Shown here piece by piece: positions 9,112 to 26,903 of a stretch of 29,966 nucleotides of DNA. Both the position numbers and the translations under genes were made by a program. This DNA is from a virus. Position 1 is the stretch's first letter; each line of letters starts with the position of its first letter. Under the pieces are notes generated by a model. That model saw only the letters and a list, made by a program, of their open reading frames with translations. It was not told the DNA's origin and made no database searches. The stretch spans positions 1 through 29,966 of the IMG/VR virus record IMGVR_UViG_3300043436_000653. One strand, 5' to 3'.

Positions 9112-9151
9112 GGGCCTTGGGCAAGCCCTTTAAACGGAGGCCATCATGGCT
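9112..9151 (+). promoter_or_regulatory. leader hairpin and ribosome site before the tail tube gene
   Basis: Second copy of the capsid leader. CCTTGGGCAAG lies at 9115-9125, followed by exactly ten unlike bases (CCCTTTAAAC) and GGAGGCCATCATGGCT at 9136-9151. Pairing can form GGG/CCC (9112-9114 with 9126-9128) and CTT/AAG with one bulged C. The flanking stem bases differ from the capsid copy but still pair, which hints at a conserved RNA shape. Confidence 0.6.
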
Positions 9152-9574
9152 AAACAACTTGGACGCGCCCTGCTCGTAAAGATTGGCGATGGCGCATCAC
9201 CCACAGAGGCTTTTGCGAACCTTTGCGGTCTGAACAGCAAGACCATGACGATCAACAACTCGCTGATCGACGTGACCACCCCGGATTGCACCACTCCCGG
9301 CGGCGCACTGTGGACCGAAAACCTCGGCGGCCTGAAAAGCGTTTCGATCTCTGGCGATGGCTTCTTTGAGGACAGCACCACCGAAGCACGCATGAACACC
9401 GTGGCAATGCTGGCTGACGCGAAGGCTAACTTCACCGTCACCGTTCCGGCTTTCGGCACCTATGCAGGTGCTTTCTACATCGAGTCGCTGGAATTTGGCG
9501 GCGAGACTGAAGGCGGCGTGACCTACTCGCTGTCGCTGGCCAGCACTGGCGCAGTCACGTTCACGGCTGCTTAA
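9146..9574 (+). CDS. major tail (tube) protein
   Basis: A 142-aa tail tube subunit of the TP901-1/GTA type. The tube fold is suggested by 'GLNSKTMTINNSLIDVTTPD', a SVSISGDGFFED strand, and the closing FGGETEGGVTYSLSLASTGAVTF. Its place between tail terminator and chaperone genes is standard. Codon use is biased as in the capsid gene, consistent with high expression, and it has its own leader rather than an overlapping start. Confidence 0.88.
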   Translation: MAKQLGRALLVKIGDGASPTEAFANLCGLNSKTMTINNSLIDVTTPDCTTPGGALWTENLGGLKSVSISGDGFFEDSTTEARMNTVAMLADAKANFTVTVPAFGTYAGAFYIESLEFGGETEGGVTYSLSLASTGAVTFTAA

Positions 9575-9960
9575 TGACGATCACGGCAGAAGCGCCGCGT
9601 GGAGGTGTCGTCGAATATATCGGCGGCACCTCTTACGTTTTCCTGCTCCGCAATCGTGAGATTGAGCGGTTTGAGGATAAGCACCGAGGCATCTTTGATT
9701 TCTGGGAAGGCGTCTTTGGCCGTGGCAAGAAGCCGACCAGCACTGAGGTTAAAGACCTTTTGGCATTGGGACTTGTCGGCGGCGGCATGAAGGATGCAGA
9801 GGCAGACAAGGTTTTATCGTCCGCAACTCCTGCTGACCTTTTGCGGCTTTACCAGATCGCGCAGGCCGTCCTCGGCATCGCCTTCATGCCAGACACGGCG
9901 GAAGAGGTGGAAAAAGCCTCAAAAAAAAAGCCGCCAGAGGGCCAGCAGTTGACAGATTAA
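9574..9960 (+). CDS. tail assembly chaperone, upstream ORF (GTA gp10-like)
   Basis: A 128-aa chaperone that would coat the tape measure before tube polymerisation. The N-terminal 'GGTSYVFLLRNREIERFEDKH' and the helical middle (TSTEVKDLLALGLVGGGM) match the GTA gp10/Phage_TAC_11 type. Near its 3' end the zero-frame codons read TCA AAA AAA AAG, giving A AAA AAG at 9924-9930. A -1 slip there would continue without a stop into the ORF at 9972 and give a 192-aa fusion. Starts inside the tail tube stop codon. Confidence 0.85.
   Translation: MTITAEAPRGGVVEYIGGTSYVFLLRNREIERFEDKHRGIFDFWEGVFGRGKKPTSTEVKDLLALGLVGGGMKDAEADKVLSSATPADLLRLYQIAQAVLGIAFMPDTAEEVEKASKKKPPEGQQLTD
9924..9930 (+). other. -1 ribosomal frameshift site A AAA AAG
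   Basis: The heptamer lies in the correct zero frame (codons at 9925-9927 and 9928-9930) within a run of nine A. After a -1 slip, reading from 9930 is open through 9972 to the stop at 10149-10151. GAGGTG at 9904-9909, 14 bases upstream, is a strong Shine-Dalgarno-like sequence that could stimulate the slip. The same heptamer with an upstream SD-like element is the classic dnaX arrangement in E. coli. I see no strong downstream hairpin. Confidence 0.82.
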
Positions 9961-9971
9961 ACGTCAGAGGC

Positions 9972-10151
9972 ATGATCAAGAACGGGATCGTCATCGGCTT
10001 ACGCCCTGAAGAAATCCGTGATATGATCCCGAAAGACGCTTGGCTTGTTTTCCAAGGCTGGCATGATGCACATGCGCCGAAGAAGCCCGGTGATGACGCG
10101 ATGACAGCGGAGCAGTTCCGCGAACTTGTGAGGCAGGTTGATGGCAATTAG
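9972..10151 (+). CDS. tail assembly chaperone, downstream ORF (frameshift extension)
   Basis: A short ORF (59 aa from its own ATG) positioned like lambda T or the small GTA chaperone between gp10 and the tape measure. It contains GLRPEEIRDMIPKDAWLVFQGWHDAH and ends MTAEQFRELVRQVDGN. It lies in the -1 frame relative to the upstream ORF, and the 14 codons between the slip site and its ATG contain no stop. I infer it is made mainly as a C-terminal extension that contacts tail tube or tape measure. No good ribosome site precedes its ATG. It overlaps the tape measure start by 11 bases. Confidence 0.78.
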   Translation: MIKNGIVIGLRPEEIRDMIPKDAWLVFQGWHDAHAPKKPGDDAMTAEQFRELVRQVDGN

Positions 10152-11844
10152 TGCTGAACAGCTAAACATCATCTTGGCCGCCAAGGACAAAGAGTTTGCC
10201 AAAGCTATGGCGGCAAACTCGCGGCGCATTGAAAAGTTCGCGCAAAAGGCCAACAAGGATTTGTCTGGCGCTGGAGACATGTTCGGCAAGCTGGCTGTCG
10301 CAGCGCAAGGCTTGGCCGCTGTCGCAGTTTTCCAGCAACTTGCAACCTCTATCAAGGCCGCCGCTGACCGCATGGGCGATCTTGCTGATGCCGCAGACTC
10401 GATTGGCATCACAACAACGGCTTTGCAGGAGTTGCGCTATGCGGCTCAAATGAGCGGCATTCAGCAAGATACCTTGCAGCAGGCGCTTGTCGTTCTTTCA
10501 AAGAACCTTGGCGATGCAGCGGGCGGCGGCAGCGCGGCTAAGGACTCATTGCAGGCACTTGGCCTGTCAGCAACTGATCTTGCATCTGTGCCATTGCCTA
10601 ATGCTTTGGAAATGATCGCCAACAAAATCGCTGCTGTCGAAAACCCAATGCAGCGCGCAACACTTGCCGCCGATCTGTTTGGCAAATCCGGCGTCAAGAT
10701 GATCAACATGCTTTCTGAGGGTTCTGACGGACTCGCAAGAATGCGTGAGGAAGCGCAGTCATTGGGCGTTGTAATTGATGAAGACATCATCCGGCAGGCT
10801 GCCGATGCTGGCGATAAGCTGGATGCGATGTCATCTGTGATTTCTGCCAACCTTAGCGTTGCGCTGATCAATCTTGCGCCGATCCTGATTGAAACGGCGC
10901 AAGCCATTGCTGGCCTTACTGCTGCCGCGAATGACTTCCTGTTCGGTCAGATGAATGCGGATCGTGCATTTGTTTCTGCGACTGAATATGCAAAAGGCTT
11001 GAAGGGCGAGGTTCAAGAAGTAGCTGACGCCTATTCCGAGGTCGGGAAAACTCAGTCTGCTCTTGCTAGGGTTCGAGATTATGAAGCGAATGTTGCAAGC
11101 ATTCCAGACTCGTCAATCCTTGCAAATGCCGAGGCGGCTGCGGAAGCGGCAAAGGCAAACCTTGTCGCCGTGACAAATGCCCACAAAGATCAAACCGAAG
11201 TGATCGAACTGGAAACCATTGTCATTGAGGACAATACAAAGGCTCAGGGCAGATCAACTGCCGCCCGCGAAAAATCTAAAGCTGCTTTGGAAGCCTACAA
11301 AGCGCAGGTTGAAGCCCTTGGCCTGACGCTTTCAGAGTTTGAAAGCATCTCATCGACCATTCAGTCGTCGATGGAAAACTCATTCATGGGCATTGTTGAT
11401 GGCACTATGAGCGCCAAGGATGCCTTCAAGTCTATGGCCGCCGACATTATCAAAGAACTGTATCGGGTTCTGGTTGTCCAGCGCCTTGTTGGCTCTTTTG
11501 CAACCGCGACAAAAGGAGGCTCCGGCCTGCTTGGTGCAATCGGAGGCGCACTTGGCATCACAGGCAGCGCATCAGGCGGTGCGCTTATGGCTGGTCAGCC
11601 TTCGGTCGTGGGTGAGCATGGCCGCGAGTTGTTTGTGCCTTCGAGCGCAGGACGCGTGCTGTCAGTGCCGCAGGCAAAAGCGGCAGTCAATGGCGGCGGC
11701 GGCGTTTCAGTCACGCAAAATATCACCTTCGGCGCTGGCGTAAGCCGATCTGAAATTCAAGCCATGCTGCCGAAGATCGTGGAAAGCACCAAGGCCGCCG
11801 TGTTCGATGCACAGCGGCGCAGCGTCAATGGGATGGGCTACTGA
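10141..11844 (+). CDS. tail tape measure protein
   Basis: Sets tail length and helps DNA ejection (567 aa). The N-terminal half is helical and alanine-rich (about residues 20-120). A middle segment near residue 400 (SFMGIVDGTMSAKDAFKSM, then IIKELYRVLVVQRLV) is characteristic of lambda/GTA-type tape measures. The tail has the GEHGRELFVPSSAGRVLS motif common in this family. At about 1.5 angstrom per residue it implies a tail of roughly 85 nm. ATG at 10141 is preferred over the TTG at 10138 because GTGAGG lies seven bases upstream. Confidence 0.92.
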   Translation: MAISAEQLNIILAAKDKEFAKAMAANSRRIEKFAQKANKDLSGAGDMFGKLAVAAQGLAAVAVFQQLATSIKAAADRMGDLADAADSIGITTTALQELRYAAQMSGIQQDTLQQALVVLSKNLGDAAGGGSAAKDSLQALGLSATDLASVPLPNALEMIANKIAAVENPMQRATLAADLFGKSGVKMINMLSEGSDGLARMREEAQSLGVVIDEDIIRQAADAGDKLDAMSSVISANLSVALINLAPILIETAQAIAGLTAAANDFLFGQMNADRAFVSATEYAKGLKGEVQEVADAYSEVGKTQSALARVRDYEANVASIPDSSILANAEAAAEAAKANLVAVTNAHKDQTEVIELETIVIEDNTKAQGRSTAAREKSKAALEAYKAQVEALGLTLSEFESISSTIQSSMENSFMGIVDGTMSAKDAFKSMAADIIKELYRVLVVQRLVGSFATATKGGSGLLGAIGGALGITGSASGGALMAGQPSVVGEHGRELFVPSSAGRVLSVPQAKAAVNGGGGVSVTQNITFGAGVSRSEIQAMLPKIVESTKAAVFDAQRRSVNGMGY

Positions 11845-17099: not shown

Positions 17100-17315
17100 A
17101 TGATCGCGCTGATCGATCCTCGTTTTAATCGCGTCTGCGAAGTGGCTCAGGCGGAGTTCCCGGTGGCGGATCCGTTGTTCTGGACGTCGTGCCAAGACGA
17201 CTGCATACCGGATTTCGATTACTGGAACCCGGAGACCCAGAGCATCGTCTACCCGCCGCGCCCTGAGCCAGAGGCGACCATTGATCTTGTCGGGACCACC
17301 GTGGAGGAGTTCTGA
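17100..17315 (+). CDS. small fibre-associated protein, unknown
   Basis: A 71-aa acidic protein right after the fibre gene, with GGGAGG upstream. It starts MIALIDPRFNRVCEVAQ and has a FWTSCQDDCIPDFDYWNPETQSI core. Short genes of this type often follow phage fibres and may be fibre chaperones or caps, but no motif proves this. Stop overlaps the next ATG, so it is coupled to the cupin gene. Confidence 0.68.
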   Translation: MIALIDPRFNRVCEVAQAEFPVADPLFWTSCQDDCIPDFDYWNPETQSIVYPPRPEPEATIDLVGTTVEEF

Positions 17316-17608
17316 TGCAGATCATGAGCCTAAAACTCCCCGGCCCTTACGCGACCTTCTACACCTCGGATCACGCAGCGGATGAGGTGAAAGAACACAC
17401 GCACGAATATGCCCACTCCTGCACCGTTGTGCGGGGTTCTGTTCTGGCAATCTGCGAGGGCAAGGAGAAGAGGCTTGGTGTCGGGCAGTCTGTGATCTTC
17501 CCCAAGGACAAGGCGCACTCCATCCGCCCCCTTTCGGTAGATACGATCTTCGTCAACGCTTGCGCGGAAGTCCTGCCAAGCGAAGAGCCTATGTTCAGGG
17601 CGCTCTAA
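17315..17608 (+). CDS. small single-domain cupin
   Basis: A 97-aa protein with both cupin motifs. Motif 1 is H28-T-H30-X3-H34-X6-G41, with His in the usual Glu position. Motif 2 is G57-X5-P63-X-D65-X2-H68. These four His residues would bind one metal ion. The fold can act as an enzyme, a sugar-binding or a sensory domain; the sequence does not say which. It is coupled to the gene before it and sits three bases ahead of a methyltransferase. No signal peptide, so it acts in the cytoplasm or in the virion. Confidence 0.8.
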   Translation: MQIMSLKLPGPYATFYTSDHAADEVKEHTHEYAHSCTVVRGSVLAICEGKEKRLGVGQSVIFPKDKAHSIRPLSVDTIFVNACAEVLPSEEPMFRAL

Positions 17609-25726: not shown

Positions 25727-25926
25727 TACTTGGTCTCCTTCATAGCGTTGTTGATGGCGGTGTTCAGGCGCTGGGCCAACTCGGCGCGGTTGAGATAGAG
25801 CGCGATCTCTGCGGTGTTGGATACTTCGCCGCCGAGTGTCGCATTCTGCGTCGCGGCGACCATTTCCTTGACGCACTGAAGCGCGATCTCGGCCTGCTCC
25901 AGCGTGAGGGTTACGGTCTTGGTCAT
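25726..25926 (-). CDS. small helical protein, unknown
   Basis: A 66-aa protein (MTKTVTLTLEQAEIALQCVK...) of two to three helices. It has a strong AAGGAG ribosome site and a CAAACAAGGA leader shared with two upstream genes of this operon. No family recognised with confidence. Confidence 0.65.
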   Translation of the reverse strand: MTKTVTLTLEQAEIALQCVKEMVAATQNATLGGEVSNTAEIALYLNRAELAQRLNTAINNAMKETK

Positions 25927-25951
25927 GCTAGTCTCCTTGTTTGCTATGCTG

Positions 25952-26191
25952 TCAGTGGCCGATGATTGTCTTCTGGATACGGCCATCGCGCCCAAAGATG
26001 CGGACGGGCTTGTCGGCATCCAGTTGCTTGGCCAGTGCGATGGCGTCACGCTTGTGGTAGCCGAACTTGGCGTCTCCGATCTGGTAGTGGTTCTCAATGG
26101 TGTACTCAACCAAAGCCCATCCAGTGCGGGCATCGATGAAGAACACCTCGAACATGGTAGAGAATTCGTTGGTAGAGGTCAGGTCGGTCAT
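25952..26191 (-). CDS. small unknown protein
   Basis: A 79-aa protein with alternating strands and a helix: FEVFFIDARTGWALVEYTI, then KFGYHKRDAIALAKQLDAD and a basic end. ATG at 26191 is chosen over 26200 because AAGGA then sits eight bases away; for 26200 it would be too close. Separated from the next upstream gene by a strong hairpin (26218-26257). Confidence 0.62.
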   Translation of the reverse strand: MTDLTSTNEFSTMFEVFFIDARTGWALVEYTIENHYQIGDAKFGYHKRDAIALAKQLDADKPVRIFGRDGRIQKTIIGH

Positions 26192-26217
26192 GGCGGTCAT
26201 CCTTGTTTGTTTGTTGG

Positions 26218-26257
26218 CCTTCGGGATGCCAGCCCCGCAGGGCTGGTCACCGGAAGG
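26218..26257 (-). terminator. two-part hairpin in the leftward operon
   Basis: Inner stem CCAGCCC (26229-26235) pairs with GGGCTGG (26240-26246) around a four-base loop. An outer stem CCTTC-GG pairs with CC-GAAGG (26218-26225 with 26250-26257) with one mismatch. It begins just after the first gene of the leftward operon. No T run, so it is more likely a partial terminator or a stabilising or processing site than a full stop. Confidence 0.5.
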
Positions 26258-26551
26258 TCAATCCTTGAACCTTACGTTGGTTTTGTTGAATTTTGGGTGA
26301 TTGTCATAGCGGCCAAACTGAACGTGAATTTTGCCGTCGGCATCGCTTCTGACCGATCCGTTCCACCACTTATTGCCAGTGTTGTAACGGCCTTCGATCC
26401 CATAAGCGAAAAGCCACCCGTATTCCTCAACCTTCAGGGCGCGGACTCGCCGGGTTTCACGGCCCAGTGTCAAGTCAACTGTGCCTTCTATGTCGCCCAA
26501 TTGCGAAACGCCTGTCTGGGTGAAGCTGTCGCAGTCAATCGTGATGGTCAT
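26258..26551 (-). CDS. first gene of leftward operon, unknown
   Basis: A 97-aa beta-rich protein (TITIDCDSFTQTGVSQLGDI; RVRALKVEEYGWLFAYGIEG; GKIHVQFGRYDN). As the promoter-proximal gene it should be the most expressed of the operon. ATG at 26551 is preferred over 26560 because AAGGA then lies at proper spacing. No function recognised; a host-takeover role is possible by position only. Confidence 0.65.
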   Translation of the reverse strand: MTITIDCDSFTQTGVSQLGDIEGTVDLTLGRETRRVRALKVEEYGWLFAYGIEGRYNTGNKWWNGSVRSDADGKIHVQFGRYDNHPKFNKTNVRFKD

Positions 26552-26584
26552 GTTGGTCATCCTTGTTTGCTAGTTCGTGAGACC

Positions 26585-26612
26585 ACCATACAGCCACCCG
26601 CACCGCATGCAA
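26585..26612 (-). promoter_or_regulatory. candidate leftward early promoter
   Basis: On the minus strand, TTGCAT (26612-26607) and TATGGT (26590-26585) are spaced by 16 bases and lie 34 bases before the first leftward start. The match to the sigma-70 boxes is fair only. It is eight bases from the operator-like repeat. Confidence 0.35.
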
Positions 26613-26620
26613 GCAAGAAA

Positions 26621-26635
26621 ATGCGCTTGACGCAT
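26621..26635. promoter_or_regulatory. operator-like inverted repeat ATGCG-N5-CGCAT
   Basis: A perfect five-base-pair inverted repeat with a five-base centre (CTTGA), in the only divergent intergenic region of the window. It overlaps a TTGACG -35 box. A Cro-like protein is encoded just downstream, so this is its most likely binding site. Binding itself is inferred. Confidence 0.6.
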
Positions 26636-26655
26636 ATTTTTTTTCACCCTAAGCC
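26627..26655 (+). promoter_or_regulatory. candidate rightward early promoter
   Basis: TTGACG (26627-26632) is a near-consensus -35 box. Seventeen bases on is TAAGCC (26650-26655), a poor -10. A run of eight T lies in the spacer. The ATG of the Cro-like gene is 30 bases after the -10. Position and operator overlap support the call more than the -10. Confidence 0.45.
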
Positions 26656-26684
26656 TAAAGCATCTAAACAAGGGAGAGCGCCAA

Positions 26685-26903
26685 ATGATGGCTCAGAAAC
26701 AAATCAGGCAATGGTGCGCCAAGGATGGCCGAAAGCTGGGCTGGGTCGCACAGCAGATTCCGGTGGCATCCTCCAGCTTCAGTCGCTGGATGACGGGCCG
26801 CATCGTGCCATCCGCAGTCTATCGCCACCGCATCGCGGACATCACTGGGATCGAAGATTTGCGGTTTGAAGAAGAATGGATCAGTGAAGGAGCGACAGCA
26901 TGA
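26685..26903 (+). CDS. Cro-like helix-turn-helix protein
   Basis: A 72-aa DNA-binding protein. The helix-turn-helix is at about residues 18-40 (LGWVAQQIPVASSSFSRWM, followed by TGRIVPSAVYRHRIADITG), the pattern of small Cro/YdaS-like repressors. It is the first gene of the rightward early operon and likely represses one or both divergent promoters by binding the nearby inverted repeat. AAGGGAGAG ribosome site. No matching larger CI-type repressor is seen in the window. Confidence 0.78.
   Translation: MMAQKQIRQWCAKDGRKLGWVAQQIPVASSSFSRWMTGRIVPSAVYRHRIADITGIEDLRFEEEWISEGATA

Follow-up and report, generated by a model that had tools for sequence, protein, structure and literature searches.

A conserved run of nine adenines joins two tail chaperone regions in alphaproteobacterial phages and is a candidate site of transcriptional slippage

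The tail chaperone locus of a virus record from IMG/VR is best read as one recoded gene for two tail-assembly chaperones, in the manner of lambda G/GT. Normal reading would give a protein of 128 aa with the domain of protein g10 of gene transfer agents (GTAs), while a share of the products would enter the −1 frame at a run of nine adenines (A9) and reach 192 aa with a second chaperone domain. That the two chaperone parts are fused is very likely. As to how, transcriptional slippage at A9 is probably the main mechanism: RNA polymerase would add one A (or drop two) at the A9/T9 tract, and part of the mRNA would then be read in the −1 frame without any shift by the ribosome. Some ribosomal shifting may add to this at the in-frame A_AAA_AAG within the run, and related phages seem to arrive at the same fusion through a shorter, classical ribosomal heptamer or through outright gene fusion. 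The proposal is built on comparison of sequences, which shows a conserved −1 junction, a switch of the constrained reading frame, natural in-frame fusions, a run length kept across codon phases, and, for the A9 sites taken together, a lack of ribosomal stimulators; slippage by the polymerase, the ratio of the products and their role as chaperones are inferred from it.

The window, i.e., the whole stretch of 29,966 bases that was analysed, appears to come from a phage of the Rhodobacter group and has a siphophage gene order (terminase, major head protein, tail tube, chaperone, tape measure, distal tail protein, tail fibre). On the plus strand, the gene of the major tail tube protein (9146–9574; PF06199 Phage_tail_2, E 6e-29; phrog_1407, E 1e-35) is followed by the zero-frame ORF (9574–9960), a short, GTA g10-like tail chaperone corresponding to the "G" product. 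The zero frame reads TCA AAA AAA AAG at 9919–9930 and stops at 9958–9960. The A9 run at 9921–9929, the proposed slip site for RNA polymerase and/or the ribosome, is unmatched in the 30-kb window, where no other A-run exceeds seven, and overlaps the zero-frame heptamer A_AAA_AAG at 9924–9930. From 9837 the −1 frame is open to a TAG at 10149–10151; its extension beyond the slip site (9930–10151) adds 73 aa and a stop to the 119 residues encoded upstream, giving the joined product of 192 aa, and its end is overlapped by the ATG (10141) of the tape measure gene (10141–11844; phrog_8462 tail length tape measure, E 5e-40). Judging from their family and from where they lie, the two products would be expected to act as lambda G and GT do, helping tail tube subunits and tape measure to come together as the tail is built. 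A first-pass annotation of this DNA had proposed a programmed −1 frameshift joining two tail chaperone ORFs at this place, and its coordinates, zero-frame heptamer, open −1 frame and fusion length all proved correct on re-reading; it described the heptamer, which is indeed there, but missed the nine-A length of the run.

For comparison, 80 close viral relatives were retrieved, a distant set was added by profile searches, and more prophages were obtained from a search of 397 genomes. The frame of the second part was assigned by HMM, and the 130 distinct sequences were clustered at about 80% identity into 46 clusters, which are incompletely independent and are related by a tree with many weak branches. 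Loss of the heptamer or of the open −1 frame in close relatives, which the annotation had named as evidence against its proposal, is not what was found: exactly nine A followed by G are kept in 78 of the 80 close relatives, and in these the −1 frame is open as far as the contigs reach, a degree of conservation well above chance. Both exceptions have indels in the run, one with A10 and the two parts in one frame (L071), the other with A8 (L068). Across the whole set, the second part lies in the −1 frame at the slip site in 126/130 distinct sequences, which bears out a −1 junction between two tail chaperone regions. These comprise 110 sequences with A9 (77 in phase 2, 30 in phase 0, and 3 in phase 1), 4 with A10, 11 with A6 or A7, and 1 with G_GGA_AAG in place of an A run; in the remainder, two sequences carry A8 and place the second part in the +1 frame, and two are fused in frame. 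The A8 cases (L068 and L173) may be due to an assembly indel in the homopolymer or to disruption of the gene. By cluster, 33 have A9 (rarely A10) with a −1 junction (17 in phase 0, 5 in phase 1, and 11 in phase 2), 11 have short sites, and the last two are the fused gene of phage RcapNL and the A8 locus L173. No A-run of at least seven occurs elsewhere in the 46 cluster genes.

The pattern of diversity over the three codon positions shifts at the run: it is 0.17/0.10/0.47 before the slip site in the zero frame and 0.19/0.13/0.45 after it in the −1 frame (0.35/0.24/0.53 over the first 15 codons), so the coding frame under protein selection switches at the slip site. Natural fusions lead to the same architecture. 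In Rhodobacter phage RcapNL (gp16, JQ066768), the only cultured phage relative found, both domains are homologous to those of the window (N-terminal part 47.7% identical); no plasmid relative was found. There the two parts form a single 190-codon gene with A7 (A9 minus 2, a length that may include a homopolymer reading error), which makes slippage unnecessary. Because RcapNL encodes both parts in one gene, the two-domain fusion is a real protein architecture. The A10 of L071, which puts both parts in frame, equals A9 plus 1. Two prophage loci (L240, 1501–2031, and L241, 1501–2013) hold distant PF11836-like chaperones with an apparent second domain in one unbroken frame, and outright fusion may thus have occurred more than once. 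Between the window (9574–10151) and its relatives L003 and L004, the −1 part has only 3–6 differences in about 220 nt, compared with about 30 in 350 nt for the zero-frame part, which suggests recombination or an extra constraint downstream of the junction.

The family assignments connect the locus with the GTAs. In the GTA of Rhodobacter capsulatus (RcGTA), g10 is tail chaperone 1 and g10.5 is tail chaperone 2 (PMC11409702). The annotation had likened its two ORFs to separate GTA genes of this kind, and they do correspond to g10 (PF11836) and g10.5 (PF09550). The zero-frame ORF belongs to PF11836 (Phage_TAC_11/GTA-gp10) with 28.7 bits against a cut-off of 27.8 (E 1.4e-6) and matches phrog_8985 (E 2.5e-11). 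Its structural model is confident (mean pLDDT 84), and a structure search of this model against the PDB gave no significant match (best E 0.77). The C-terminal extension of the window gave no match to PF09550 (Phage_TAC_6) at the curated cut-off, and the extensions of two relatives reached E 0.09 and 0.19; in profile comparison (hhalign), the phage C-terminal part aligned with GTA g10.5 with a probability of 77.5% and E 2e-5. The extension would therefore be a g10.5-like small tail chaperone by distant resemblance only. In the GTA loci of related hosts (L219 and L220), the second gene matches PF09550 strongly (E 2e-25 and 4e-23). Unlike the joined phage form, g10 and g10.5 are separate ORFs in these loci, overlapping at the stop of g10 (a TGA, within TGATG in L219) without a slip run.

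What is conserved at the junction is the nine-A run, in all three codon phases and in divergent relatives, and not the heptamer. The short sites at the −1 junction, in contrast, consist of an in-frame heptamer in every case, which is A_AAA_AAG in nine clusters, A_AAA_AAA in one (L140), and G_GGA_AAG in one (L143). The last of these, the heptamer of lambda, is also found in prophage locus L235, outside the 46 clusters. An in-frame A_AAA_AAG is present in 9/11 short versus 10/33 long clusters (Fisher p = 0.0045). The two types of site are intermixed on either side of the tree's deepest branch; many of the branches are weak. In phase 2, the last codon that lies entirely before the heptamer is TCA, GTA, TTA, GCA or CCA; its final A is invariant even as the amino acid changes, despite the fact that TCA makes up 5% of the Ser codons and GTA 2% of the Val codons in the chaperone genes. 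Synonymous choice alone would produce this invariance with a chance of about 1e-14 if the clusters, among which kinship exists, are taken as independent. Even so, the A stays in place while the amino acid varies, which speaks for more than a few events having occurred separately. The codon holding the first base of the heptamer is always AAA in phase 0, while in short sites it is GCA, GAA, CCA, GGA or CCG. These constraints upstream of the heptamer are explained by selection on a run of nine and not by selection on the heptamer alone. In the clade of the window the run is followed by G (AAG) in 76/77 sequences, the exception being AAC in L123; this AAG could be kept as a ribosomal heptamer would want, or through constraint on Lys or on the −1 frame.

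The two types of site also differ in their surroundings. Anti-Shine-Dalgarno (SD) pairing upstream of the site has a median of −5.9 kcal/mol in short-run clusters versus −3.0 kcal/mol in A9 clusters (p = 0.004). Compared with the rest of the gene, SD-like pairing is stronger at short-run sites (p = 3e-5) and shows no excess at A9 sites (p = 0.34). The 40 nt downstream likewise fold more strongly in the short-run group (p = 0.0001 overall; p = 0.0035 within GC 0.60–0.70), a contrast that fades in GC-matched sets with windows of 60–80 nt and stands at p = 0.05 when expressed as z-scores against shuffled sequences. No downstream hairpin was found in the window (z = −0.22), and the median z of the A9 group is about 0. 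As a group, the A9 sites thus lack ribosomal stimulators. The annotation had assigned a stimulatory role to GAGGTG at 9904–9909, 14 nt before the heptamer. This element is present in the window and, at −7.5 kcal/mol, is among the stronger SD-like elements of the A9 group; it occurs in only two of the 77 phase-2 A9 sequences (the window and L005), is altered in three of the four nearest relatives (L003, L004, and L006), and was rejected as a conserved stimulator. Of the dnaX-like ribosomal signal that had been envisaged, the in-frame A_AAA_AAG is present in the window, but a conserved SD-like stimulator and a downstream hairpin are not, and the conserved unit is A9.

Judged by the conservation of run length, the window and the rest of the A9 class have the look of polymerase slippage, and the short class resembles ribosomal frameshifting. 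Nine A or T suffice for efficient slippage by bacterial RNA polymerase (PMC5009743), and where homologues keep the length of a nine-A run, purposeful transcriptional slippage is very likely, as proposed mainly for insertion sequence (IS) elements (PMC1088944). Both features of that published criterion, a conserved run length and two frames joined, are found in the present set. As the conserved unit is A9 rather than the heptamer, the polymerase is no less likely than the ribosome to be what slips. Programmed −1 ribosomal frameshifting at A_AAA_AAG, or at the tandem A_AAA_AAA / A_AAA_AAG, with or without the SD-like element, is nonetheless a close rival or even a partner, and we regard it as a possible rather than a probable main mechanism. 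The exact in-frame heptamer occurs in 76/77 phase-2 sequences, any A9 contains an in-frame all-A heptamer, and A_AAA_AAG is the most shift-prone all-A site in E. coli (PMC5009743). A pattern search of three related host genomes found tRNA-Lys(UUU) only, as in E. coli; tRNA-Lys(CUU), which would weaken ribosomal slippage at AAG, was not found in them, and tRNA content therefore offers no argument against the ribosome. Several relatives moreover combine clean short heptamers with SD-like and folding signals, and the SD-like element of the window itself is relatively strong. Ribosomal slippage, however, leaves unexplained both the length of nine in every codon phase and the obligatory A that ends the codon before the heptamer; in phase-0 relatives the heptamer is only the weaker A_AAA_AAA, the A9 sites are without the stimulators of the short-run sites, and GAGGTG is not conserved. 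Tandem heptamers were considered as the reason for A9 and fit phase 2 but not phase 0.

Two further readings dispense with slippage during expression, and both are very improbable. The downstream frame could be translated alone from the ATG at 9972–9974, by coupling after the zero-frame stop as in GTA g10/g10.5, with the run being incidental. The ATG lies 12 nt past that stop, and is found in 67/77 phase-2 A9 sequences; separate overlapping ORFs are seen in the GTA loci L219 and L220. The residues between the slip site and the ATG are, however, already conserved in the −1 frame, other members have TTA, CTA or CTG in place of the ATG, the parts are joined in a single frame in RcapNL and L071, and retention of A9 would be without reason. 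Given the conservation upstream of the ATG and the natural fusions, this start was set aside as the main route and is probably not required. Variation in length at the DNA level, through replication slippage that toggles fused and unfused forms or through sequencing artefacts, is if anything even harder to credit. Runs of A7 (RcapNL), A8 (L068 and L173), and A10 (L071) do exist, but A9 stands at the −1 junction in 110/130 distinct sequences, including the isolate genome of Salipiger thiooxidans (L085), and the other frame-altering lengths are rare singletons.

Frameshifted tail chaperones are a textbook example of ribosomal recoding, and in the other known tailed phages it is, to our knowledge, the ribosome that slips. 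The programmed −1 frameshift of lambda G/GT was reported by Xu, Hendrix and Duda in 2004 (described in PMC5009743); ribosomal frameshifting has also been described for the tail chaperones of the Caulobacter phiCbK group, with AAAAAAC (PMC3556154), and of R. capsulatus phages (PMC8601537). The present locus resembles lambda G/GT in its place between tail tube and tape measure, in its short product with a −1 C-terminal extension conserved in relatives, and in the G_GGA_AAG carried by some of these (L143 and L235); it differs in its family, PF11836, and in a conserved slip element that is A9 without ribosomal stimulators. No report of polymerase slippage or realignment for phage tail chaperones was found in a search of open-access papers. 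Closer parallels to transcriptional slippage at A9 come from elsewhere. For dnaX, Thermus thermophilus relies on polymerase slippage at nine A/T and E. coli on a ribosomal −1 shift at A_AAA_AAG (PMC5009743); homologues of the chaperone gene likewise seem to obtain their two products in one of two ways, from a run of nine bases or from a short heptamer accompanied by SD and hairpin, although slippage here would extend the protein, where in dnaX it truncates it, and the gene is viral. In bacterial IS elements (PMC1088944), an A9 of conserved length similarly joins overlapping ORFs (orfA and orfB), but the gene here serves phage morphogenesis and is not a transposase.

The wider proposal, towards which we lean with some reserve, is that a large group of alphaproteobacterial phages sets its chaperone ratio by polymerase slippage, and that homologues have more than once exchanged one route for another among polymerase slippage, ribosomal frameshifting, and outright fusion. 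If polymerase slippage is true, selection would keep the two-product chaperone while the recoding machine is interchangeable, making the locus a phage counterpart of dnaX, and slip-site predictors based on ribosomal heptamers would misread these genes. The A9 and short-heptamer sites in homologous genes provide natural pairs for a direct comparison of the two mechanisms, and the set connects a fused phage form with g10 and g10.5, which are separate genes in GTAs.

Elsewhere in the window, a T8 run at 26637–26644 lies within a 321-codon plus-strand frame (25904–26869) without family matches and could conceivably be another homopolymer slip site. A small cupin-domain protein (PF07883, E 7e-8) is encoded at 17315–17608, downstream of the tail fibre gene.
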